Origin: Sedimenticola thiotaurini
GTDB lineage: Bacteria > Pseudomonadota > Gammaproteobacteria > Chromatiales > Chromatiaceae
Reading direction: 5' to 3'
Assembly: GCA_011051715.1 (NCBI GenBank)
Contig: DRKP01000054.1
Location: forward strand, 1-53,843
Length of the DNA: 53,843 nucleotides
Numbering within the stretch: the stretch's first letter is position 1; every line of letters begins with the position of its first letter. The notes beneath the pieces are model-generated. The model was not told the origin of the DNA, ran no database searches, and saw only the letters and a program-made list of their open reading frames with translations. Below are positions 2 to 19,788 of the stretch, piece by piece. A program made the position numbers and the translations under genes.

Positions 2-502
2 ATGGCACAGGGGACCCTGATCTCACGGTCATTCGATATTACCGCAGCGGATTTCAGATTCACCAACTTTGGCGATGATGATCCGAGCGTGGTGGTTTCA
101 CCAGCCAGGATCAGGTTTTCAGTGAGCTTCGACGATTCGGCGGATATCGATGCAACCACGACCGGCCTGGTAATCGACAGTTTCAATCTGCCTAATTACA
201 GTGCCCGGTACGCCTACAACTCCGCATCTGATTTTCTGGTGGTTGCTACCAATCCATTCGCGAACAAGAGTTGTTATCATCCCAATCCGTATGATTTCTG
301 TTTCTTTGTTGATGATGTAGGGTCATCCAATCCAGTTGCGACACTATTTGTGCAGACAACAAGCAAGGGAGGTGTTTGGAGCGCCAGGGCGATAAGATTA
401 ACCTGGACCTCCCGGGTTCCCGAACCCGCTACCCTCACATTGATGGGCCTCGGCCTGGCCGGCATCGGCTACCGGCGGCATCGCAGCATGAAGACCGCAT
501 AA
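2..502 (+). CDS. PEP-CTERM sorting-domain protein (C-terminal part)
   Basis: Exported protein ending in a PEP-CTERM tail: VPEPATLTLMGLGLAGIGYR (about residues 139-158), a VPEP motif, a hydrophobic segment and a basic end. In this system an exosortase recognises and processes the tail during export, usually for envelope or exopolysaccharide-associated proteins. The remaining ~135 residues are beta-rich with no domain I recognise. There is no signal peptide after the first visible ATG at base 2, so the gene very probably starts before the window and this is its 3' part. No exosortase gene is in the window. A strong hairpin terminator follows at 528-547. The sorting tail is clear; the function is unknown. 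Confidence 0.8.
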   Translation: MAQGTLISRSFDITAADFRFTNFGDDDPSVVVSPARIRFSVSFDDSADIDATTTGLVIDSFNLPNYSARYAYNSASDFLVVATNPFANKSCYHPNPYDFCFFVDDVGSSNPVATLFVQTTSKGGVWSARAIRLTWTSRVPEPATLTLMGLGLAGIGYRRHRSMKTA

Positions 503-527
503 CAACATCCGCAGGTCCTCAATCCCA

Positions 528-547
528 CCCCGCTTCGGCGGGGTTTT
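528..547 (+). terminator. Rho-independent terminator after the PEP-CTERM gene
   Basis: Perfect 6-bp GC stem (528-533 with 538-543), a stable TTCG tetraloop and a TTTT run, 26 bases after the stop codon. Confidence 0.85.
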
Positions 548-773
548 CAATTTCCGATCCATGTCCATAGCGGGCCGCCAGCCGGCATCGCGACGCAGGT
601 TTCACCGCTTCGGTTTCCCTGCGATCGCTGCGTCCGGTTTTCCCCGGGATTTATGTCGTCACCGACCGAATGTGGTATCGACTGATTTGTTGCGCGGAAG
701 ATTGGTATTCGTCAGTATTGAAGCGGCTCTCCACGAATGGGGAGCGATGAGAACAGCACAGGGAGGGGAGAGA

Positions 774-1172
774 ATGAACAAACCGATGGTATTCGCACTG
801 GCGTTTGCGACACTGTCCGGAACTGCCGTGACCTCATCGGCGGCCAGCATGAGCGGCAGCGAGATCGGGCGGGTGTTCGCCGGAAACACGATCGAATGGG
901 TCAGTCTGAAGAAAAAGCCCATGAGTCCCAGGTGGAAGCCGCCATATGGTCGCACCTATTTCTCTCCGAATGGAACGATGGAGGGGACGCTGAAAGGGAA
1001 GTCGAGATCCGGTACCTGGAGGATCGATGGAAACCAGTTGTGCCTGAACTGGAAGCAGGAGAAGTGTAGGGATCTCGAACCCGATGGCGGTGGGGGTTAC
1101 TACATCGTGAATCGGGAAAAAGGAAAGCGGGGGGTCCACATAAAGAGAGTGCTGCAGGGAAAGCAGCTCTAG
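774..1172 (+). CDS. Small exported protein of unknown function
   Basis: 132-residue protein with a signal peptide (MNKPMVFALAFATLSGTAVT, cleavage near SSAAS). The ATG at 774 is chosen because a good ribosome-binding site (GGGAGGGGAG) lies 5-6 bases upstream and the signal peptide starts there. The mature part has the pattern of a small beta-barrel-like domain: EIGRVFAGNTIEW, RTYFSPNGT, GTWRIDGNQLC and a second Cys (EKCRDL). The same pattern recurs in the C-terminal half of the next gene (1349-2158), so the two are paralogous in this domain. The two cysteines could form a disulfide in the periplasm. I do not recognise a named function. Confidence 0.7.
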   Translation: MNKPMVFALAFATLSGTAVTSSAASMSGSEIGRVFAGNTIEWVSLKKKPMSPRWKPPYGRTYFSPNGTMEGTLKGKSRSGTWRIDGNQLCLNWKQEKCRDLEPDGGGGYYIVNREKGKRGVHIKRVLQGKQL

Positions 1173-1232
1173 GGTACACACGAAGAATCAGGGGCCCCGG
1201 TGCGGGCCGGGTCTCGGATGGCTGCATAGTAT

Positions 1233-1257
1233 GGATTCCGGCCTTCGCCGGAATGAC
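1233..1257. repeat. Dispersed palindromic repeat, ATTCCGGC type (copy 1)
   Basis: Perfect 8-bp inverted repeat ATTCCGGC-cttc-GCCGGAAT (1235-1242/1247-1254) followed by GACG. The same unit is inverted at 38385-38412 and degenerate at 17098-17124. It resembles a small palindromic repeat common between genes in many proteobacteria. Confidence 0.7.
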
Positions 1258-1348
1258 GAATAGAGATTGGCTTGGGACTCCATCGATCAGGTGGCATCTC
1301 CCGGGTGGGCGTGGGAGAGAAGAAAAAACCGTATGACAGGGGGCTGAT

Positions 1349-2158
1349 ATGAAAAACACTGGGCTCTTCGGGCGAGTCCCGCTCATCGTGGCGGCTGTGA
1401 TGTTCCTCGGTGGGTCGATTGCCGTTGCCGCGGAAGAAATTCCTCTGCCCGACGACGTGGTGATCCTCTCTCCGGCGCCAGGGCTGCCCGATGATCTGGC
1501 CGGATTCATTGGAAAATGGGGGGAGGGTCGCTGGAGTGGCAATCTCATGCCGGTCGAGGTGGTGATCGAGAACATCAGGGCGGATGGTAGGGCGAGCGTG
1601 ATCTATGCGCACCCGGACTATCCGGACTGGAATACAAGGGCAGGGTATTTACGCGGGCGGGGATTCATGCTGGATGGCTGGCTGATCACCAAATTCAGGG
1701 GGCTGACCCTGAATTTGAAGGTCCCGGAGAACGACACGATCGAAGGAACGAATGCTCCAAATATCCATCTCAGAGGGATCACCCTGAAACGTCAGAAATA
1801 CCCGATCTGGAAAAGACTGACGGCTGCAGAGATCAGGGAAACTTTTACAGGAAAGACCGCGACCATATGGCACGAAAAGAAGGAATTTCCCCTGCAGCGC
1901 TATTACGCTCCGGACGGGACGATTTTCACCAGGACCCCCTTTTCGGAGACACCGAAAAAGGGATTTTGGTTTATCGATGAACAGGGGCGCCTGTGCGAAC
2001 GGGCAAACCCCATGTTGAAAAAACATTTGTGGTGCCAGGTTGTGGCAGACAATGGCGAAGAGATTGCCCGCTTCTTCATGGTGACCGGCAGAAAGAGGAT
2101 CCCGAGGCCCATCAAGACATTTACCTATCGGTCATTCTCAGATGGGAATACGCTTTGA
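1349..2158 (+). CDS. Exported two-domain protein of unknown function
   Basis: 269 residues with a signal peptide (about 1-27, hydrophobic VPLIVAAVMFLGGSIAVA). The N-terminal domain (about 45-150) has a GKWGEGRW start, VEVVIENIRADGRASVIYA and a GT...HLRGITLKR end, a lipocalin-like repeat of beta strands that I have seen in uncharacterised periplasmic proteins. The C-terminal domain (about 160-255) repeats the pattern of the upstream gene: EIRETFTGKT, RYYAPDGTI, KGFWFIDEQGRLCE and a second Cys (LWCQ). RBS GGGGGC lies 8 bases before the ATG. Probably related to the gene at 774 by domain duplication. The product could bind a small ligand, but this is inference. Confidence 0.7.
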   Translation: MKNTGLFGRVPLIVAAVMFLGGSIAVAAEEIPLPDDVVILSPAPGLPDDLAGFIGKWGEGRWSGNLMPVEVVIENIRADGRASVIYAHPDYPDWNTRAGYLRGRGFMLDGWLITKFRGLTLNLKVPENDTIEGTNAPNIHLRGITLKRQKYPIWKRLTAAEIRETFTGKTATIWHEKKEFPLQRYYAPDGTIFTRTPFSETPKKGFWFIDEQGRLCERANPMLKKHLWCQVVADNGEEIARFFMVTGRKRIPRPIKTFTYRSFSDGNTL

Positions 2159-2216
2159 TTCGTGGTGCAGTCGCTGTTTCCATGTGTTGTAGAGACATCA
2201 AGTGATGTCGACGCGA

Positions 2217-2347
2217 ACCGGCCTGCGGCCGCTGAGTCGAACCTCTGATCGGTTCGAACCCTCTCACTGGAGACCGCGGTGCGCTGATCGTGCAAAGGGG
2301 GGAAGGACAGGTCGGTGCATCAGCAGAATTGGTCGGGGTGAGAGGAT
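2217..2347. repeat. Direct repeat copy 1, ending in an orphan tRNA-Pro 3' end
   Basis: 131-bp sequence repeated at 2399-2529 with only 2 mismatches (182-bp offset). Its last 18 bases (2330-2347) duplicate the 3' end of the tRNA-Pro gene, CCA included. Inside, TCGAACC-N7-GGTTCGA (2237-2257) is a perfect palindrome, and 2251-2267 matches the tRNA-Pro T-arm in the opposite orientation (16 of 17 bases). No gene is visible from 2159 to 2511; this repeat and its 51-bp spacer fill most of that stretch. Confidence 0.85.
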
Positions 2348-2398
2348 GACTCCGGGCCTTCGGCCCTTCGCCCCTGCGGGGCCCGCTGCGCGGTTCTC

Positions 2399-2529
2399 AC
2401 CGGCCTGCGGCCGCTGAGTCGAACCTCTGATCGGTTCGAACCCTCTCACTGGAGACCGCGGTGCGCTGATCGTGCAAAGGGGGGAAGGACAGGTCGGTGC
2501 AGCAGCGGAATTGGTCGGGGTGAGAGGAT
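2399..2529. repeat. Direct repeat copy 2, overlapping the tRNA-Pro 3' end
   Basis: Second copy of the 131-bp repeat. It overlaps the functional tRNA-Pro over 2512-2529. The spacer between copies (2348-2398) holds two small GC palindromes, GGGCCTTCGGCCC and GCCCCTGCGGGGC. Confidence 0.85.
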
Positions 2530-2588
2530 TCGAACCTCCGGCCCCTGCCTCCCGAAGGCAGTGCTCTACCAGGCTGAGCTACACCCCG
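2512..2588 (-). tRNA. tRNA-Pro (anticodon CGG)
   Basis: 77-nt gene on the minus strand with encoded CCA. The 5' end CGGGGTGTAG pairs with 3' CACCCCG, the D-arm is AGCTCAGCCTGGTAGAGC, the anticodon loop is TTCGGGA (anticodon CGG) on a CTGCC/GGCAG stem, and the T-loop is GGTTCGAATCC. The CGGGGTGTAG acceptor end and discriminator A match bacterial tRNA-Pro. It reads CCG proline codons. The 3' end is duplicated 182 bp away. Confidence 0.97.
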
Positions 2589-2601
2589 ATTGTGGACTTC
2601 T

Positions 2602-3570
2602 TCAGCTGGTCCGCTGGACGGAGAACTCCGCCAGGGCGGCCAGTGCGCTGCGGTAGTAGGAGGGGGGCAGGGCGTCGAGAGCGCTGATCGCCCTGGCGGC
2701 CTCCTGTTCAGCAAGGCGCGAAGTGTACTCGATCGCGTCGGTTGATTCAATGGCCGCCATGACCGCGCCGATGTACTCCCGTCCGCCCTTTTCGATCGCT
2801 TCACGCAGGGTCTGCTTCTGTTCCGGCGTGCCCACCTGCATGGCGCGGATCAGGGGCAGGGTGGGCTTGCCTTCGGCCAGGTCGTCGCCGATGTTCTTGC
2901 CGATCTCCTCCCCCGAGGTGCTGTAGTCGAGGGCGTCGTCGATGATCTGGAAGGCGATGCCCAGGTGCAGGCCGTAGTCGGCCAGGGCCTGCTCCTCCTC
3001 CGGGGTGCTGTCGTTCAGCACCGCGCCCAGGCGGGCACCGGCCTCGAACAGGGTGGCGGTCTTGCGCAGGATCACCTCGCGGTACTTCTCCTCGTCGGTG
3101 TCCGGGTCGTTGCAGTTGAGCAGCTGCAGCACCTCGCCCTCGGCGATGCGGTTGGTGGCGTGGGAGAGGACGTCCATCACCCGCATCATGCCCACGTCGA
3201 CCATCATCTCGAAGGAGCGTGAATAGAGGAAGTCACCCACCAGCACACTGGCGGCATTGCCCCAGACCGCGTTGGCGGTGTCCCGGTTGCGGCGCATCTC
3301 GGAACCGTCCACCACATCGTCGTGCAGCAGGGTGGCGGTGTGGATGAACTCGATCACCGCCGCCAGGTCGATGTGCCGCTCGCCCTGATAGCCCAGGCAG
3401 CGGGCCGCCAGCAGCACGATCATCGGCCGCAGCCGCTTGCCACCGCTGTTGACGATGTAATGGCCGATCTGGTTGATCAGCACCACGTCTGACTGCAGGC
3501 GCCTCAGGATCAGGGCGTCCACCGCATTCATGTCGTCCGCGATCAGCTCGCGAATGGCCGGGATATCCAT
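2602..3570 (-). CDS. ispB: Octaprenyl diphosphate synthase (ubiquinone side chain)
   Basis: 322 residues, the usual length for a long-chain trans-polyprenyl diphosphate synthase. It shows GGKRLRP (43-49), the first Asp-rich motif HDDVVDGSEMRRN (D84, D85, D88), and the second, IIDDALDY (about 209-216). It elongates farnesyl diphosphate with isopentenyl diphosphate to make the quinone side chain. It is divergent from rplU, as in E. coli and Pseudomonas, which supports ispB over the similar ispA. The stop codon lies 13 bases from the 5' end of tRNA-Pro on the same strand. Confidence 0.95.
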   Translation of the reverse strand: MDIPAIRELIADDMNAVDALILRRLQSDVVLINQIGHYIVNSGGKRLRPMIVLLAARCLGYQGERHIDLAAVIEFIHTATLLHDDVVDGSEMRRNRDTANAVWGNAASVLVGDFLYSRSFEMMVDVGMMRVMDVLSHATNRIAEGEVLQLLNCNDPDTDEEKYREVILRKTATLFEAGARLGAVLNDSTPEEEQALADYGLHLGIAFQIIDDALDYSTSGEEIGKNIGDDLAEGKPTLPLIRAMQVGTPEQKQTLREAIEKGGREYIGAVMAAIESTDAIEYTSRLAEQEAARAISALDALPPSYYRSALAALAEFSVQRTS

Positions 3571-3685
3571 CGAAATCTGTTTGATTGTGCGGCAGAAAAT
3601 GGGTTGGCAGGAGCAGGCATGCTAGGATTGCCCCCGATTTCTGTCAAGCGGAGGGGCGGGGCGGCCGCGGCGCCGGGAAAAGCGT

Positions 3686-3714
3686 TTGACCTGACACCAC
3701 GGGGTGGGTAGAAT
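3686..3714 (+). promoter_or_regulatory. Sigma-70-type promoter for rplU-rpmA
   Basis: -35 TTGACC (3686-3691) and -10 TAGAAT (3709-3714) with exactly 17 bases between them; each matches consensus at 5 of 6 positions. Predicted start of transcription near 3721, about 62 bases before rplU. Confidence 0.75.
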
Positions 3715-3782
3715 TCCGCCTCTTTCGTAGGTGCGCCCCGATTCGCGCGCCGGAATAAGCGGATTTTGCGGAGATTCTTGGT

Positions 3783-4097
3783 ATGTATGCCGTAATTCAG
3801 ACCGGTGGCAAGCAGTACCGCGTCGCCGAGGGCGATGTCCTCAGGGTGGAGAAGCTCGCGGCCGACGAGGGCGCGGGCATCGAGCTCGACAAGGTCCTGA
3901 TGGTCGCCGACGGCGACGACATCAAGGTGGGAACCCCCTACGTGGAGGGCGGCAGGGTCACGGCCACCGTCCAGTCTCACGGCCGGGGCGGTAAGGTCAA
4001 GATCGTCAAGTTTCGCCGGCGCAAGCATCACCTGAAGCGCCAGGGCCACCGCCAGTGGTACACGGAACTGAAGATCACCGGGATCAGCGCAGGCTGA
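3783..4097 (+). CDS. rplU: 50S ribosomal protein L21
   Basis: 104 residues, full length for bL21. It starts [14 protein letters not shown] and carries [20 protein letters not shown], the basic segment that contacts 23S rRNA. It is the first gene of the rplU-rpmA pair and has a good promoter at 3686-3714. A 15-base gap separates it from rpmA. Confidence 0.98.
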
Positions 4098-4112
4098 AGG
4101 GCAGGTTGAACC

Positions 4113-4370
4113 ATGGCACATAAGAAAGCAGGCGGCAGTACACGCAACGGTCGCGACTCCGAGTCCAAGCGCCTCGGTGTCAAGGCATTCGGCGGGCAGA
4201 AGGTGAGCGCCGGTTCCATCATCATCCGCCAGCGCGGCACCCGGGTGCACAACGGCGTCAACGTGGGCTGCGGCAAGGATCACACCCTCTATGCCAAGGC
4301 CGACGGGGTGGTGAAGTTCGAGATCAAGGGACCGCGCAAACGCAAGTACGTGAGCGTGGTTCCGGCCTGA
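4113..4370 (+). CDS. rpmA: 50S ribosomal protein L27
   Basis: 85 residues, full length for bL27. The N-terminus [20 protein letters not shown] is the flexible tail that reaches the peptidyl-transferase centre. No cleavable N-terminal extension of the Firmicutes type is present. It is cotranscribed with rplU and followed by a terminator before obg. Confidence 0.98.
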
Positions 4371-5549
<1,179 letters not shown>

Positions 5550-5553
5550 TCCG

Positions 5554-6687
5554 ATGGAGATGATCCGCCACCGCACCGATCTGCCGGCCACCCGCCGCTG
5601 GGTGGTGAAGATCGGCAGCGCCCTGCTGACCGACGACGGCCGGGGACTCAACCGCGAGGCCTTCTCCGGCTGGGTGGAGCAGATGGCCGCCCATGTGCTG
5701 GATGGCCGGGAGCTGGTGCTGGTCTCCTCCGGCGCCGTGGCCGAGGGCATGAGCCGGATGGGCTGGAGCCGTCGCCCCAGTGCCCTGCACGAGCTGCAGG
5801 CGGCCGCCGCCATCGGCCAGATGGGGCTGATCCGGGCCTATGAGACCTGTTTCCTGAAGCGCGGACTGCATACCGCCCAGGTCCTGCTCACCCACGACGA
5901 CCTCACCGACCGCCGCCGTTATCTGAATGCCCAGAGCACCCTGCGCACCCTGATCCGTCTCGGCGTGGTGCCGGTGGTGAACGAGAACGACACCGTCGCC
6001 AACGAGGAGCTGCGCTTTGGCGACAACGACACCCTGGCGGCGCTGGTGACCAACCTGGTGGAGGCCGATCTGCTGGTGCTGCTGACCGACCAGGACGGTC
6101 TGTTCGACAGCGACCCGCGCCGCAACCCCGGGGCCCGCCTGATCGGCGAGAGCCGGGTGGACAACCCGGAACTGGTGCGAATGGCAGGGGACAGCGTCAG
6201 CGGCCTGGGCCGCGGCGGCATGGCGACCAAGGTGCGGGCAGCCCGGCTGGCGGCCCGCTCCGGGGCCGCGACGGTGATCGCCCCCGGGGCGGCGGCGGAT
6301 GTGCTCACCCGCGTCGGCCGCGGCGACGACATCGGCACCCTGCTGGTGCCTGTGCAGGGGCCGGAGGCGGCGCGCAAGCGCTGGCTGGCGGGCCATCTGC
6401 AGGTGCGCGGACGGCTGGTGCTGGACGCCGGGGCGGTGCGGGTACTGCGCGAGTCCGGCCGCAGCCTGCTGGCGGTGGGGGTGAAGGAGGTGGTGGGCGG
6501 CTTCTCCCGGGGCGAGGTGGTCTCCTGTGTCGATCCCGACGGCAACGAGGTGGCGCGCGGCCTGGTCAACTACAGCGCCGTCGAGGCCGACCGCATCAAG
6601 GGGCAGCCGTCCAGCCGCATCGGCGAGATCCTCGGCTACATGGACGAGGAGGAGTTGATCCACCGGGACAATCTGGTCCTGGTCTAA
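5554..6687 (+). CDS. proB: Glutamate 5-kinase
   Basis: 377 residues, full-length ProB: an amino-acid kinase domain ([49 protein letters not shown]) followed by a PUA domain (about 280-360). It phosphorylates glutamate at the first step of proline synthesis. The ATG at 5554 fits family N-termini and has AGGA 7 bases upstream; an earlier in-frame ATG at 5521 would overlap obg. The stop codon TAA shares its last two bases with the 164-bp repeat element that begins at 6686. proA is not in the window. Confidence 0.96.
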
Positions 6688-13466: not shown

Positions 13467-14093
13467 ATGAGCAATGCATTGAACTACCTGCTGGCCGCCC
13501 GGCCGGAGGCGATGAAGGCCTATTTCAAGTTTCTGAAGGAGTCCGAGAGCCACCTGGACACCAGGACCCGGGATCTGATCTCGGTGATCACCAAGGTGGC
13601 GGTGCAGACCGAGGGCGGCTTCCGCCAGTACCTGACCCGGGCGCTGCGCAACGGCGCCAGCCCGAACGAGATCCTCGATGCCCTGCTGATGGCGTTCCCG
13701 GTACTGGGGCTGGCCAAGATCGTGTGGGCCACCGAGATCCTGCTGGAGATGGACATCCCCGAATTCCGGCCGGAGAACCTGGACGCGGAGCCGGCCTGGC
13801 ACCTGCTGGGCCCGGTGGACGGGATCCCGCAGGGGGAGGCGGCCTACTACGAGGTGGACGGGCGCCACCTGTTCGTCTACCGCAGCGGCGACGAAATCCG
13901 GGTCTACGACAGCCGCTGCCCCCACCAGGTCACCGACATCCCCCACCTGGCGCTGGAGGGCAAGACCCTCACCTGCCCGAAACACCAGTGGGCCTTCGAC
14001 ATCGAGAGCGGCGAGTGCATCGCCAGGGGCAGCCGGCCGCTGCGGCGGTTCGAACACAAGGTGGAGGAGGGGCAGTTGCTGGCCCACTGGTGA
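13467..14093 (+). CDS. Carboxymuconolactone decarboxylase-like/Rieske fusion protein
   Basis: 208 residues, two domains. The N-terminal part (about 1-100) is an all-helical AhpD/carboxymuconolactone decarboxylase-like fold (ARPEAMKAYFKFLKE, NGASPNEILDALLMAFPVLG), but the redox CxxC of AhpD is absent. The C-terminal part (about 110-208) is a Rieske ferredoxin: C151-P-H153 and C170-P-K-H173-Q-W bind a [2Fe-2S] cluster. No signal peptide, so cytoplasmic. RBS GAGGAAAG precedes the ATG. No oxygenase or reductase partner is nearby. Likely an electron carrier tethered to a CMD-type module; the role is unknown. Confidence 0.85.
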   Translation: MSNALNYLLAARPEAMKAYFKFLKESESHLDTRTRDLISVITKVAVQTEGGFRQYLTRALRNGASPNEILDALLMAFPVLGLAKIVWATEILLEMDIPEFRPENLDAEPAWHLLGPVDGIPQGEAAYYEVDGRHLFVYRSGDEIRVYDSRCPHQVTDIPHLALEGKTLTCPKHQWAFDIESGECIARGSRPLRRFEHKVEEGQLLAHW

Positions 14094-14140: not shown

Positions 14141-14167
14141 TCACCCCTCACTCCTCACTCCTCACTC
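14141..14167. repeat. Heptamer tandem repeat across the ampD stop codon
   Basis: Three to four tandem CTCACTC-type heptamers (GAGTGAG on the coding strand of ampD). The ampD stop codon lies inside the array. A shorter related stretch, CCCCTCACTCCTCAC, is found at 25927-25941 after the minus-strand pat gene. Confidence 0.7.
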
Positions 14168-14718
14168 CCAACCATCCCCAGATAGCGCGCCCATTCGAAC
14201 GCCGCTCCCGGGTCGGTCTTGCGGTCGGGGGCGATGTGACAGTGACCGGTGATGCGGTCGCTGGTGATGGCCGGATAACGCCGCATGATGTGGCGGGTGA
14301 CGCGGGCCAGGCAGAGATACTGGTCGTCGCTGTAGGGGATGTCGTCCGCCCCTTCCAGTTCGATGCCGATGGAGAAGTCGTTGCACGCGGTACGCCCCCC
14401 GAAGCAGGAGCGGCCGGCGTGCCAGGCGCGCAGCTCCAGCGGGACATACTGGGTCAGCGCGCCGTGGCGGTCGATCAGCAGGTGGGCGGATACCCGCTGC
14501 CGATGGATGGAGCGGAAATAGGGGTCGGCCGACGGGTCCAGCCGGTTCAGGAACAGGTCGTCGATCCAGGGTCCGCCGAAGCGGCCAGGCGGCAGGCTGA
14601 TGTTGTGGATCACCAGCAGATCGATGGTGGTGCCGGGGGGGCGCGGGTCACAGTTCGGGGACGGCAGCCGACGCGCCTCCGGCAGCCAGACTCCGCCGCT
14701 CACGGGCGCTTCTTGCAC
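14155..14718 (-). CDS. ampD: 1,6-anhydro-N-acetylmuramyl-L-alanine amidase AmpD
   Basis: 187 residues, full-length AmpD. Zinc ligands H38 (VIHNISLPPG), H159 and D169 (GHCHIAPDRKTDPG) are present, with the AWHAGRS and SIGIELEG motifs. It removes the peptide from anhydro-muropeptides in cytosolic cell-wall recycling and indirectly controls ampC-type induction. Its ATG overlaps the end of the CBS gene by 19 bases, so it is the last gene of the DUF1538/PII/CBS operon. That neighbourhood is not the usual ampD-ampE pair. Confidence 0.93.
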   Translation of the reverse strand: MQEAPVSGGVWLPEARRLPSPNCDPRPPGTTIDLLVIHNISLPPGRFGGPWIDDLFLNRLDPSADPYFRSIHRQRVSAHLLIDRHGALTQYVPLELRAWHAGRSCFGGRTACNDFSIGIELEGADDIPYSDDQYLCLARVTRHIMRRYPAITSDRITGHCHIAPDRKTDPGAAFEWARYLGMVGSEE

Positions 14719-15107
14719 AGGCCCTTCAGCACCATGTCGGTGAGGCTGACGATGCCCACCACCCTGCCGTGCTCCAGCACCGGTGCGCGCGACAGCTCGA
14801 AGCGGGTGAACAGGCGCGCGCAGTAGCGGATGTCCATCTCCGGATCGACGGTGATCACCGGTTTGGACATGATCTCGTAGATGTTGACCCGGCTCGGGGG
14901 GCGGTCCCTGGCCAGCACCTGGCGGGCGATGTCCGAGATCATCACCATGCCGTACTCGTCGTGGTCGTGGCGCTTGTTCACGATCAGGGACTTGGTCTCG
15001 ACATGGGCCATCTGCTGCAGGGCGTCCTCCACTGTGGCCACCCCGTCCACCATGTCGAACTTGGTCTTCATCACGTCCCGGACGCGGACGATCGCTTTCT
15101 CGCTCAC
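14700..15107 (-). CDS. CBS-domain pair protein
   Basis: 135 residues, almost entirely two CBS motifs (about 8-62 and 75-132): VRDVMKTKFDMVDGVATVED, then EIMSKPVITVDPEMDI and GIVSLTDMVL. CBS pairs bind adenosine nucleotides and act as energy sensors. The start is GTG, overlapping the PII-like stop by 4 bases (GTGA). There is no other domain, so it probably acts on a partner, the most likely being the DUF1538 proteins encoded upstream. Confidence 0.88.
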   Translation of the reverse strand: MSEKAIVRVRDVMKTKFDMVDGVATVEDALQQMAHVETKSLIVNKRHDHDEYGMVMISDIARQVLARDRPPSRVNIYEIMSKPVITVDPEMDIRYCARLFTRFELSRAPVLEHGRVVGIVSLTDMVLKGLCKKRP

Positions 15108-15454
15108 AACTCCTCCTCCACTACGCTGGTCAGCTGTTCAATCTGGTGGGAGACCCCGACCGCGTCCTCCACGTCGATCTGGAACGCGATTCCGGTACCC
15201 GGCTTGTCGTCGAACTCCCCCACTTCGGCGATGGTCTCCAGGATCTGCCGGCTCAGGTGCTCCTCCACCAGCAGCAGGATCATGTCACGCTGGATCTCGA
15301 GATTGAGGCCGAAGAAGGTCTTGCTCTTGCTGAGGCCCTCGCCGCGCGCCTGGTTGACCACGGTCGAGCCGGTGGCCCCTGCCTGGCGCGCCGCCTCCAG
15401 CACCGCGTTGGTCTTGCTGTCTTCGATCAGGGTGATGATGAGTTTGAAGTGCAT
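15104..15454 (-). CDS. PII-like signalling protein
   Basis: 116 residues with a ferredoxin-like PII fold: MHFKLIITLIEDSKTNAVLE (beta-1/alpha-1), GSTVVNQARGEG (beta-2), a T-loop region, LLLVEEHLSRQILETI and the B-loop-like KPGTGIAFQIDVEDAVGV near the C-terminus. The uridylylated T-loop tyrosine signature of GlnB/GlnK is absent, so it belongs to a divergent PII-like group. The start at 15454 is chosen from the fold and the GGGGAGGAA site upstream; the DUF1538 stop codon ends 1 base before it. PII proteins usually bind ATP/ADP and a metabolite and gate a neighbouring transporter. Confidence 0.85.
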   Translation of the reverse strand: MHFKLIITLIEDSKTNAVLEAARQAGATGSTVVNQARGEGLSKSKTFFGLNLEIQRDMILLLVEEHLSRQILETIAEVGEFDDKPGTGIAFQIDVEDAVGVSHQIEQLTSVVEEEL

Positions 15455-15455
15455 G

Positions 15456-16253
15456 TCATTCCTCCCCCGTTCCGGCACCGCTGCGGGCGGCCCGGTGGGC
15501 GATCCATTCACTGATTTGGGCATACCCCATCACGCTCATGATGGGAAAGAGGCTGGCGAAGGCGATGAGCCCGAAGCCGTCCAGCAGGGGGTTGCGCCCG
15601 GGAATGCTGTTGGCGAGACCCAGGCCGAGGGCGGCCACCAGCGGCACCGTCACGGTCGAGGTGGTGACCCCGCCGGAGTCGTAGGCCAGGGCGACGATGG
15701 GCTTGGGACAGAACAGGGTCTGCACCATCACCAGCACATAGCCGGTGATGATGTAGTAGTGCAGCGGTGTGCCGGTGACGATGCGGTAGGCACCCAGGGC
15801 GATGCCGATGGCCACTCCGATGGCGACGGCGATGCGCAGGCCCCAGGTGCCGATGGCGCCACCCGAGACCTGGTTGGCCTTGATCGCCACCGCGATCAGC
15901 GACGGCTCGGCGATGGTGGTGGAGAAGCCGATGGCGAAGGCGAACAGGTAGACCCAGACATAGTGCTGCCAGTTGATCACCGTGCCACCATCGTCGATGC
16001 CGATGCCGAGGAATTCGGGGGCGGTGAGCTGTTTCGCCATCAGCTTGCCGAGCGGAAACAGGGCCTGTTCCAGCCCTTCCAGGAAGAAGGCGAGACCGAA
16101 CAGGACGAACAGGAAGCCGATCAGGATCTGCCGCAGGTGGGGGATCCTCTTGCGCAGGATGAACAGCTGGAATCCGAACAGCACCACCACGATGGGCAGG
16201 ACATCGCGCAGGGTGCTCAGCAGGGCGCTGAGAAAACTGCCGAACAGCTCCAT
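15456..16253 (-). CDS. DUF1538 membrane protein, second copy
   Basis: 265 residues with 6-8 predicted membrane helices. Family signatures: [55 protein letters not shown]. The glycine/serine/threonine-rich segment could line a translocation path; no substrate is known to me. Its ATG shares one base with the stop of the preceding DUF1538 gene (TGATG). The two copies are clearly homologous along their length and probably form a heterodimer or pseudosymmetric channel. Confidence 0.88.
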   Translation of the reverse strand: MELFGSFLSALLSTLRDVLPIVVVLFGFQLFILRKRIPHLRQILIGFLFVLFGLAFFLEGLEQALFPLGKLMAKQLTAPEFLGIGIDDGGTVINWQHYVWVYLFAFAIGFSTTIAEPSLIAVAIKANQVSGGAIGTWGLRIAVAIGVAIGIALGAYRIVTGTPLHYYIITGYVLVMVQTLFCPKPIVALAYDSGGVTTSTVTVPLVAALGLGLANSIPGRNPLLDGFGLIAFASLFPIMSVMGYAQISEWIAHRAARSGAGTGEE

Positions 16254-16996
16254 CAGAGGATCATCCCGTAGGCCATGACGAAGATCATCGGTGTCAGCGA
16301 GGCGAAGGCGATGAGGCCGAAGCCGTCGGTCAGCGGATTGCGCCCGCGGATACTGGTGGCGAGGCCGACGCCGAGGGCGGTGACCAGGGGGACGGTGATG
16401 GTCGAGGTGGTGACCCCGCCGGAGTCGTAGGCGATGCCGATGATCTCCGGTGGCGCGAAGGCGGTCATGATCACCACACCGAGATAGCCGAGAATGATCA
16501 GGTACTGGATAGGCCAGCCCTTGATGATACGGATCACGCCCACCACGATCGCCAGTCCCACCGAGATCGCCACCGTCAGTCGCAGACCGTTGGCATAGGA
16601 GGACATCGCCTCCTCGTCAGGGTCGATCATACCGCCCCGGGCCGCCACCTCGGCGGCCTCCTCGGAGACGGCGATCAGCGCGGGCTCCGCCACCGTGGTA
16701 CCGAAGCCGAGGGAGAAGGCGAACAGCAGCAGCCAGAACAGGCTTCCCTTGCGGGCGAAATCGTGGGCCATGTTTTCGCCGATGGGAAACAGGGCGGTCT
16801 TCAATCCGTGCACGAACAGGGTCAGTCCGATTACCACCAGCAGGGTACCGGTGAGCAGTCCGAGCAGATCGGGAATCGGCTGGCGCAGCACCAGCAGCTG
16901 GAAGAAGGCGATCACCAGGAGGATCGGAAGCAGGTCCCGGATGCTCTCCATCGACGACCGAAACAGGTGTTGCAGACTCTTGCTCACGCGATCCAT
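16253..16996 (-). CDS. DUF1538 membrane protein, first copy
   Basis: 247 residues from the ATG at 16996 ([14 protein letters not shown]); the open frame runs further upstream but that part looks noncoding and includes a degenerate repeat. Signatures [35 protein letters not shown] and [20 protein letters not shown] match the next gene. A segment with [19 protein letters not shown] between two helices is charged and missing in the second copy; it could be a cytosolic loop where the PII-like or CBS protein docks (inference). First gene of a five-gene operon. Confidence 0.86.
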
Positions 16997-17547: not shown

Positions 17548-19788
17548 ATGGCTTTCAACAACAACATTCTCTCCTTTCAAGGCAACCAGGCAATGGAACG
17601 CCGGTTCGTGCTCAGGGAAGAATACCGCCACACGGTCAACGCCTGCCGCCAGGTGTTGCTGAAGACCGTGCCGAAGCTGATGGAGGGCATGTTCGAGCAG
17701 CTGGACGACGCCCTCTACGCCCTGGCGGACAAGGCGGAGAGCGACAGCCAGCAGGCCTCCTATTTCGACGCCATGCGGAAGATGCGGCGTGAGAGGGAGA
17801 CGATCGAAAACGAATTCAACCGCCATCTCCTGATCGGCTTCGACCATTTCTGGCAGAGCGGCCCCCCCCTGGCCGCCGCCGATGCGGCGCCGCAGCTGGA
17901 GCAGGATGAGTTCTCCCTGGTGGAGAACGAGGATCTGGAAGAGGGCCTGGCGGTCAACAACATGGTCTCGCGGGGGGAGAACCGCCACTATCGCGACCTC
18001 TACGCCCTGAACCAGAGGATCGGCCACATGGTCGATCGCGAGATCGACTCGGCGCGCAATCCGCTCGGACCGGCGGCCATCTGCGAGGGATTCCACCAGG
18101 TGATCCGGCCGCTGTCCCTGGACGTGGCGGTGAAGATCGTCATCTACAAACAGTTCGAGCGCACCGTGGTCGATGCCCTCGACCAGCTCTACGGGGAGAC
18201 CAACGAGGTGCTGGCGCGGGGCGGGATCCTGCCGAAGCTGAGTCACCGGGTACGCCGGGCGCCCAGCTACGGACCGGCGCCGGCCAGCGGGGCGGCTGGA
18301 ACCGTGATGGAGCAGGCACAGGGGACCGAGATCGACGATCCCCGGCTCCAGGGCGAGTTGTTCCCGGTGCTGCAACAGATGCTGGGACGCCGCCGCGGTG
18401 GACAGCAGGCACCCCATGTTCCGGTGGTGGCGACCGACCAGGTGGTGGGTCTTCTCTCCTCGCTGCAGCAGGCCAACATGGCCGCCATCACCAGCGCCGC
18501 GTTGTCCGATCTGGGCAATCTGGATCTGCGTGCCAGCCTGCAGCAGGCGATCCAGGCGACCGGCGGTGGCGAGCACCGCATGGAGGAGAGTGACGACGCC
18601 GCCATCGACGTCATCTCGATGCTGTTCGAGTTCATCCTCGAGGACCGCAGCCTGCCCGACGCCATGAAGGCCCTGCTGGCGCGCCTGCAGATCCCGATGC
18701 TGAAGGTGGCCATCCTCGACAAGGAGTTCTTCAGTCGCAAGAACCATCCGGCGCGCAGGCTGCTCAACAGCATGGCCCAGGCCGCGGTGGGCTGGACCGA
18801 AAAGGCGGGTCGGGCCGATGGCGGCCTGTATGCCAAGATGGAATCCATCGTCGAACGGGTCCTGGACCGGTTCGAAGACGACATCGGCCTGTTCACCGAA
18901 TTGAACGAGGAGTTCACCGCCTTCCTGGAGCGGGAGGCGCAGGGGCGCGAGCTGGCGGAGAAGCGGGTGGCACAGGTGACCCAGGGCAAGGAGCAGCTGA
19001 AGCAGTCGCGGGAACGGGTGGAGCGTGAGCTCCGCCAGCGGCTGGCCGGACGCGACGCGGTGCCGGAGGTGGTGGCCGATCTGCTGCAGGAGGGTTGGCG
19101 CGACGTGCTGCTGCTGATCCTGCTGCGCCAGGGCGACGACAGCGGCCAGTGGCAGGACGCGCTGACCCTGGTGGACCGGCTGTTGTGGAGCGTGGAGCCG
19201 AAGGTGGACGAGGAGCAGCGGCAGGAGCTGCTGCAGGAGATCCCCGGTCTGCTCAAGGCCCTGCGCAGCGGGCTCAACGAGATCTCCTACGATCAGCACC
19301 GCATGGCCGAGCTGTTCCGTGACCTGCAGGCCTGCCACGTCGACTGTCTGAAGGGCGTGGACCCGGCGGAGCATGTGCCGGTGGCGAAACTTTCACCGCC
19401 GGACGGGGATGTTGATGCCACCGGCGAGGCCCCGGCGGCCGCTTCCGACGATGGGGGGGCGGAAGAGCGGGAATCAGCGGAAAAGGATGAGTTCGAGCAG
19501 CGGGCCGATTCCCTGCCGCTGGGGACCTGGCTGGAGGTGACCGACGAAAACGGCGACCGCTTCCGCGCCAAGCTCTCCTGGCGCAGCAAGGTCACCGGCA
19601 CCTGCCTGTTCGTCAACCGCAAGGGGATGAAGGTGGCGGAGCTGCCCCGGGACGGCCTGGTGGAGTGGTTCCGCAGTGGCCGTGCGGTGGAGCTGCGTGA
19701 GGTCAACGTCCCGTTGATGGACCGGGCCCTGGTGGCCATGATGAAGGTGCTCGACAGCGACGGCAAAGGGGCGCCGGCGGCCAGCTGA
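17548..19788 (+). CDS. DUF1631 family protein
   Basis: 746 residues, cytoplasmic and mostly helical. I recognise the family from EYRHTVNACRQVLLKTVPKL, RLQIPMLKVAILDKEFFS and HPARRLLNSMAQAAVGW. The last ~90 residues (LPLGTWLEVTDENGDRFRAK, SWRSKVTGTCLFVNRKGMKV) form a small beta-barrel like the C-terminal segments of PilZ-type proteins, but the RxxxR/DxSxxG c-di-GMP motif is not evident. The family is often next to chemosensory or surface-related genes; function unknown. Monocistronic: a strong terminator follows at 19813-19848. Confidence 0.85.
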   Translation: MAFNNNILSFQGNQAMERRFVLREEYRHTVNACRQVLLKTVPKLMEGMFEQLDDALYALADKAESDSQQASYFDAMRKMRRERETIENEFNRHLLIGFDHFWQSGPPLAAADAAPQLEQDEFSLVENEDLEEGLAVNNMVSRGENRHYRDLYALNQRIGHMVDREIDSARNPLGPAAICEGFHQVIRPLSLDVAVKIVIYKQFERTVVDALDQLYGETNEVLARGGILPKLSHRVRRAPSYGPAPASGAAGTVMEQAQGTEIDDPRLQGELFPVLQQMLGRRRGGQQAPHVPVVATDQVVGLLSSLQQANMAAITSAALSDLGNLDLRASLQQAIQATGGGEHRMEESDDAAIDVISMLFEFILEDRSLPDAMKALLARLQIPMLKVAILDKEFFSRKNHPARRLLNSMAQAAVGWTEKAGRADGGLYAKMESIVERVLDRFEDDIGLFTELNEEFTAFLEREAQGRELAEKRVAQVTQGKEQLKQSRERVERELRQRLAGRDAVPEVVADLLQEGWRDVLLLILLRQGDDSGQWQDALTLVDRLLWSVEPKVDEEQRQELLQEIPGLLKALRSGLNEISYDQHRMAELFRDLQACHVDCLKGVDPAEHVPVAKLSPPDGDVDATGEAPAAASDDGGAEERESAEKDEFEQRADSLPLGTWLEVTDENGDRFRAKLSWRSKVTGTCLFVNRKGMKVAELPRDGLVEWFRSGRAVELREVNVPLMDRALVAMMKVLDSDGKGAPAAS

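Follow-up and report, generated by a model that had tools for sequence, protein, structure and literature searches.

What is carried, and under whose control, by two homologous membrane proteins encoded in one operon with a PII-like protein and a CBS-pair protein? The question is raised by a locus of Sedimenticola thiotaurini (assembly GCA_011051715.1, contig DRKP01000054.1). The whole stretch analyzed, hereafter the window, comprises 53,843 nucleotides, and positions are given in its coordinates. An initial annotation made from the sequence had named four genes, a DUF1538 pair, a PII-like and a CBS-pair gene, and all four were confirmed by Pfam profiles (Table 1). Our analysis indicates that the operon probably specifies a monovalent cation/proton antiporter of the UmpAB type and regulatory subunits to go with it: a dedicated, probably inhibitory PII protein would gate an antiparallel membrane pair from the cytosolic side.

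The initial annotation envisaged a membrane channel or transporter of unknown substrate, regulated through PII and CBS sensors. Transporter and PII partner stand, but the family is not without a known substrate, as it includes the characterized antiporter UmpAB. This DUF1538 pair of Halomonas zhaodongensis was described in 2017 as a heterodimer that exchanges Na+ (Li+, K+) for H+, is active from pH 6.5 to 9.5 and complements E. coli devoid of Na+/H+ antiporters (PMC5484666). In its 4.2 kb source clone, umpA and umpB were the last two open reading frames, alongside a third intact one and a truncated one; the vesicle assays relied on pUC-umpAB, so that antiport was measured without the neighboring genes, in E. 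coli (PMC5484666). DUF1538 also appears in a table of pH-related features in a 2026 study (PMC13255231). Both window proteins exceed the curated PF07556 cut-off (22.6 bits) and belong to the DUF1538/UmpAB family; they are the sole DUF1538 pair found in the genome. Each also matches the right NCBIfam equivalog model (NF041627 for UmpA, NF041628 for UmpB), with 377 bits against a cut-off of 490 and 353.5 bits against 500, respectively. Because these scores lie below the equivalog cut-offs, we call the pair UmpAB-type and not an ortholog with a proven substrate. The membrane part had no match in the PDB by sequence, nor a Foldseek match in the PDB or BFVD at E ≤ 0.001; the best, EAAT3, was weak (E 5.8e-3, prob 0.51). 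The VIA matches listed for a fused model span its PII domain only.

A PF07556 match is present in 90 of the 274 genomes sampled from Gammaproteobacteria. In the phylum to which an Arthrobacter belongs the count is 17 of 246, in that of a Campylobacterota genome 15 of 121 and in the genus of one Halomonas strain 13 of 41; none of 14 control genomes has a match. Of the 220 DUF1538 loci whose gene neighborhoods were examined, the 90 gammaproteobacterial genomes supplied 93 and a named-genome scan its best 80; Actinomycetota supplied 16, Campylobacterota 15 and Halomonas 13, and the other 3 represent 3 of the 5 plasmids with a hit. Certain species are represented twice, and L248 and L253, which entered through a PII hit rather than through DUF1538, were counted. 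PII was scored as adjacent when encoded on the same strand with matches at most 450 bases apart. It is adjacent in 191 loci, fused in 15, farther away in 3, not seen in 9 that end at a contig edge and absent from 2. Adjacent or fused PII on the same strand thus accounts for 206 of the 220 loci, and the survey, one of the checks proposed at the outset as able to refute the pairing, left it standing. The three farther PII genes share the strand of the pair and are separated from it by a transposase gene (L079), by the CBS gene (L173) or by two genes (L254). The last of these loci, from Halomonas (G676), carries on a single strand, at 57-5774, umpA-umpB, an ATP-grasp gene, a gene for a 682-residue protein that matches no Pfam family, and PII; a relative of its ATP-grasp gene lies near UmpAB in L120.

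Besides Gammaproteobacteria, Campylobacterota and Actinomycetota, the linked loci include a single one from Alphaproteobacteria and two from Clostridia. Plasmid annotation concurs, listing DUF1538 followed by a 'P-II family nitrogen regulator' in Paraclostridium and Methylocystis, and the gene order is changed to PII-CBS-UmpAB in L173, L174 and L240. The association also holds from the PII side. A PII protein matching that of the window at E ≤ 1e-8 was found in 85 of the 274 gammaproteobacterial genomes, and 83 of these 85 carry DUF1538, about 28 being expected. In one exception (L244) the PII gene lies at a contig edge; in the other (L245) it lies behind a short 3' remnant of umpB with 64% identity over 25 residues. 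Seven DUF1538 genomes unmatched by the PII query carry divergent PII genes beside DUF1538. The PII partner of DUF1538 is nearly obligate, and the linkage is far beyond chance. Open-access PMC literature, to which the search was confined with subscription papers outside it, yielded no report of a PII-DUF1538/UmpAB pairing. What appears to be new is the regulator, a diverged PII on a new transporter class; PII-controlled transporters and UmpAB antiport were already known.

The link is covalent in Campylobacterota, where UmpA, UmpB and PII form single chains of about 640-690 residues (Sulfurimonas, Arcobacter, Aliarcobacter, Poseidonibacter, Thiovulum and others). The 15 fusions comprise a first set of 11 and four from the phylum sample; in the four of the 11 that were scanned with Pfam, the fused PII domain scores 25.5, 26.5, 28.7 and 30.8 bits with PF00543 against a cut-off of 25. 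A second PII gene is found in some lineages. Proteins of 222-396 residues beside fused DUF1538 contain two, perhaps three PII-like domains, the third being weak or undetected, and those of L225, L232 and L235 may possibly represent a covalent PII pseudo-trimer. The fused UmpAB of L098, L125, L134 and L136 is directly preceded by an additional, weak PII-like gene, besides the downstream PII-CBS; those of L098 and L134 score below the Pfam cut-off.

The PII-like protein of the window belongs to the PII superfamily both by profile (Table 1) and by predicted fold. Its single-chain AlphaFold2 model has a mean pLDDT of 82.8, lower at residues 41-50 and near the C-terminus, and GlnK structures are its best Foldseek matches (prob 1.00). 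The gene nevertheless scores lowest of the three PII genes in the genome (51 bits vs 113 and 116). Across 217 PII units, Lys90, Arg101 and the uridylylation site Tyr51, whose numbering and roles, like those of Arg103, we take from canonical PII, are retained in none, and Arg103 is retained in 6; the Arg101 position holds Gly in 206, a gap in 10 and Thr in 1. These units lack the residues of a canonical GlnB/GlnK. Conservation is instead strong in the segment ARGEG-x4-KTFFGL-x-LE--RD, in which G, F and G are invariant (100%) and K, T and L reach 90-98% among 63 gammaproteobacterial sequences; K-T-F-(F/L)-G-(L/M) is retained even in divergent PII sequences. Since Lys90, Arg101 and Tyr51 are lost and the loop is conserved, canonical ATP/2-oxoglutarate sensing and uridylylation by this PII appear unlikely, and the loop likely targets a protein. 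Sensing of ATP/ADP, which the initial annotation presumed, cannot be taken for granted with the Lys90 and Arg101 equivalents gone in 217 of 217 units. Other PII-like proteins do bind nucleotides without residues of this type. As a ligand in this organism, c-di-AMP was considered and found improbable: the genome, 99.99% complete, has no match to diadenylate cyclase (PF02457).

Lys and Arg residues were counted in alternate loops with both DUF1538 copies aligned in one frame, according to the seven-helix scheme of PMC5484666, which matches the helices of the model. Loci fetched through their PII gene (L270-L294) were included. Over the 96 gene pairs the bias averages +4.4 in first and -5.7 in second copies, and the halves of 108 fused proteins average +5.6 and -6.9; the window pair gives +7 for UmpA and -4 for UmpB. 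The signs of the means hold in every group sampled, with nine exceptional rows. Three of these, L045_P1, L045_P2 and L149_F2, look mislabelled by ordering, L045_P1 and L149_F2 falling in the opposite tree group, and all three were kept as counting against an antiparallel arrangement. From the charge bias we infer an antiparallel pair, with UmpA N-in/C-out and UmpB N-out/C-in. Given this orientation, the C-terminal tail of UmpB, which bears the PII domain in fusions, is predicted to be cytosolic. Five single-copy actinobacterial proteins (L216-L220, all with PII) have a bias of +1.0 (0 to 2) and, few as they are, may possibly be dual-topology homodimers. A quick tree, built on a sample of 97 rows, largely separates first from second copies; in it the pairs of Actinomycetota/Clostridia group away from those of Gamma/Campylobacterota, a split that could reflect two duplications or a long-branch error. 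One alignment, in which short PII rows were spread across the membrane part, was discarded.

An extra charged loop, said by the initial annotation to occur in the first copy only, was offered there as a natural docking site. The loop is real: in gene pairs, loop III-IV of 83 of the 96 first copies is 27-29 residues long, whereas 95 of 96 second copies have at most 18 residues there. The docking role is contradicted. The extra loops of both UmpA and UmpB are predicted to lie outside and therefore could not dock PII or CBS, and the long UmpA loop is missing from 111 of 204 first copies (13 of 96 in pairs, 98 of 108 in fused proteins), including all 15 PII fusions. Docking at the UmpA loop was rejected on these two grounds, the predicted topology and the frequent absence of the long loop.

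CBS is a looser associate. It was found within 1.5 kb in 162 of the 220 loci, in 0 of 16 loci of the Actinomycetota sample, on 0 of 3 plasmids and beside 0 of 15 PII fusions (the contig ends there in L256). It is a frequent partner, but an optional and lineage-limited one. Both CBS repeats of the window protein bear the SxxD/TxxD motif (GMVMISDI, GIVSLTDM), a ribose-binding motif of such repeats. Among 160 CBS proteins of relatives, the strict motif pattern has one match or more in 136 and two in only 14.

We propose that UmpA and UmpB, as homologous seven-helix proteins in opposite orientations, would form one antiparallel transporter, at whose cytosolic face the PII-like protein would dock. 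By analogy with GlnK on AmtB and SbtB on SbtA, the PII loop (ARGEG....KTFFGL.LE) may enter the cytosolic side of the transporter, where it would most likely block or slow antiport until a metabolic signal releases PII. The CBS pair might, in some lineages, supply a second, nucleotide-type input. Antiport and heterodimer formation were established by others for a homologue (PMC5484666); as that UmpAB works without its PII, the latter is most simply a brake or modulator. An opposite-orientation pair would give UmpAB a testable architecture and a reason for its two homologous genes, and the locus would offer a simple test system for antiporter regulation. PII proteins are classic nitrogen, carbon and energy switches; if the proposal is right, a PII subunit devoted to a Na+/H+ antiporter, and in places fused to it, would tie the homeostasis of salt and pH to this switch across many bacteria.

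Several observations weigh against a PII-gated cation antiporter. The Halomonas locus L254, in which umpA and umpB are separate much as in the published arrangement, has its PII 3.9 kb off, and CBS was not found there. L238 and L243 have flanking sequence yet no PII; L238 is an umpA-like copy, the umpB-like copy of the same genome (L237, other contig) having both PII and CBS, a placement that itself speaks for the pairing, and L243 is a fragmentary locus. Some PII partners of divergent DUF1538 fall under the Pfam cut-off (e.g. L232, 20.2 bits). The sub-equivalog scores of the window proteins suggest that the same substrate is not assured, and the activity of UmpAB was tested in E. coli, a host with PII proteins of its own. 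Finally, RuBisCO occurs in 68 of the 90 DUF1538 genomes vs 74 of the 184 others in the gammaproteobacterial set, a comparison not controlled for phylogeny, which could point to a tie with carbon, not cation, physiology. Such enrichment would suit a pair that chiefly transports another solute (inorganic carbon or a Na+-coupled one, SbtA-like), with PII as an SbtB-like carbon sensor and the Halomonas antiport as a side or member-specific activity; the PII domain of the fused model, which aligns equally well with SbtB, CPII and GlnK (Z about 10.4 to 11.5, tied), would fit too. We nevertheless consider such a solute decidedly improbable. The remaining 22 of the 90 DUF1538 genomes lack RuBisCO, and the module also occurs in Halomonas, Marinobacter, Vibrio, Arthrobacter and Paraclostridium, which we take to be heterotrophs. 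DUF1538 has no Pfam match to SbtA, and the window PII, devoid of cysteine, has no R-loop of the kind present in some SbtB proteins (CGPxGC). Moreover, antiport of Na+, Li+ and K+ against H+ was measured for a member of the family, which also complements E. coli lacking Na+/H+ antiporters (PMC5484666).

The role of PII could also differ in sign. It may be an activator, or an assembly or stability subunit, in place of an inhibitor or gate, with small-molecule sensing perhaps wholly lost; the disappearance of Lys90 and Arg101 from every PII unit favors this, and permanent fusion in 15 loci fits a structural role easily. However, UmpAB alone is active in E. coli, where PII is therefore dispensable for assembly (PMC5484666). 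The strong conservation of the PII loop also counts against this role, as do the tandem PII-like domains of L225, L232 and L235, which suggest that the PII oligomer itself matters; on balance we judge an activating or structural PII unlikely. Least probable is that the genes share only an operon and its expression, with PII and CBS acting elsewhere in the cell. Co-transcription would suffice to explain adjacency within one genome, but not the natural fusion of PII to UmpB, the linkage across phyla with rearranged gene order, or the near absence of this PII type without DUF1538 (2 of 85, namely the umpB-remnant and contig-edge cases described above). A PII-gated UmpAB-type antiporter remains our preferred reading.

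A second setting of this PII points in the same direction. In one gammaproteobacterial genome, another PII of this kind adjoins a Na_H_Exchanger/TrkA (Kef-type) gene. Such adjacency recurs, in three relative orientations, in 5 of 5 genomes that have such a PII (≥80% identity) among 151 searched, and in L244 a Kef-type gene directly follows CBS. Kef-type CPA2 antiporters exchange monovalent cations for H+. The neighborhood supports cation/proton exchange as a shared theme, although the group is narrow. A tentative generalization, which we advance with less confidence than the gating of UmpAB itself, is that a distinct PII subfamily serves as a general regulatory subunit of monovalent cation/H+ antiporters (UmpAB nearly everywhere, Kef-type in places) and reads a signal other than ATP/2-oxoglutarate, with UmpAB as a seven-helix antiparallel two-subunit antiporter surviving in single, paired and fused stages. 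Were this so, the subfamily would tie cytosolic pH and Na+/K+ to metabolism.

In the window, the five genes listed first in Table 1 all lie on the minus strand and are transcribed in the order umpA-like, umpB-like, PII-like, CBS-pair, ampD. The initial annotation gave 15104-16996 for the system, a range that covers three genes only, with CBS and ampD below it. It also described coupling by overlaps of 1 to 4 bases or by adjacent stops. Overlaps exist for umpA/umpB (the umpB start and umpA stop share 1 base) and for PII/CBS (4 bases); the umpB stop and PII start do not overlap but are separated by 1 base. The 19-base overlap reported for ampD depends on its start: it follows from the listed GTG at 14718, whereas an alternative GTG at 14703, which presumably better matches the N-terminal length of E. 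coli AmpD, gives a 4-base GTGA overlap. With the window counted, ampD was detected somewhere in the locus in only 16 of 65 cases; it is probably a neighbor and not part of the module, which it follows only in some lineages. A promoter/terminator scan gave 0 promoter-like sites and 1 terminator-like site, not above shuffled sequences. A role in anti-phage defense was rejected, the four proteins having no PADLOC match. Elsewhere in the window, 13467-14093 (plus strand) encodes a 208-residue protein with carboxymuconolactone-decarboxylase (AhpD-like) and Rieske domains, and 17548-19788 (plus strand) encodes a DUF1631 protein that diverges from the operon and scores 308 bits with the PacR model, below its cut-off of 1200. 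G+C is 0.557 at 1-2000, compared with about 0.63-0.69 elsewhere, perhaps through recent acquisition.

Table 1. Coordinates of the operon genes in the window and of related features in other loci
Feature	Position	Strand	Product	Evidence
umpA-like, first DUF1538 copy	window 16253..16996	-	247 residues	PF07556 237 bits, E 2.3e-70
umpB-like, second DUF1538 copy	window 15456..16253	-	265 residues	PF07556 231 bits, E 1.1e-68
PII-like, proposed regulator subunit	window 15104..15454	-	116 residues	PF00543 51.9 bits (cut-off 25), E 1e-13
CBS-pair, proposed accessory sensor	window 14700..15107	-	135 residues	PF00571 69 bits, E 3.4e-19, 2 stretches
ampD	window 14155..14718	-		PF01510 E 5e-32; NCBIfam AmpD 272.6 bits (cut-off 143)
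UmpA loop III-IV, predicted outward-facing	window 16580..16666	-		charged stretch at 16607-16636; loop lengths, charge bias
Multi-PII-like protein	L232 5638-6810			two, perhaps three PII-like domains
Multi-PII-like protein	L235 5575-6762			two, perhaps three PII-like domains
Multi-PII-like protein	L225 4542-5207			two, perhaps three PII-like domains
PII with Kef-type neighbor	L252 (G249) 3961-6412; also L265-L269			same PII subfamily

Of the known systems, the closest is UmpAB of Halomonas zhaodongensis, which shares with the window PF07556, an overlapping two-gene pair and extra loops III-IV in UmpA and II-III in UmpB. The window proteins differ in scoring under the NCBI UmpA/UmpB equivalog cut-offs, and the main text of the UmpAB paper contains 0 occurrences of PII or CBS and, as available, no statement of opposite orientation (PMC5484666). 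Transporter targets of PII listed in a 2023 review are AmtB/Amt1, Nrt, Urt and SbtA; in GlnK-AmtB, the PII gene is linked to the transporter gene and the GlnK T-loop blocks the cytosolic side (PMC10710835). The linkage of a PII gene to its membrane transporter is the same here, but transporter family and substrate differ, and the window-type PII lacks the uridylylation Tyr, Lys90 and Arg101 and has a T-loop built differently. SbtB likewise is a dedicated PII-like partner of a secondary transporter, its T-loop entering the cleft of the Na+-linked, inverted-repeat transporter SbtA (PMC8352866). No sequence relation between DUF1538 and SbtA was found, however; the PII lacks R-loop cysteines, and the inverted repeats would here be two separate proteins. 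DUF606, for which a mini-review describes a series of single genes, gene pairs and fused genes, and other dual-topology families resemble DUF1538 in these three forms and in the opposite charge bias within a pair (PMC3962082). They differ in having about four helices per unit versus seven, and DUF1538 has a known antiport function and a PII partner. Kef-type CPA2 antiporters belong to a different membrane family (PF00999) with its own TrkA domain, yet share with the UmpAB locus a related PII as direct neighbor in five genomes.

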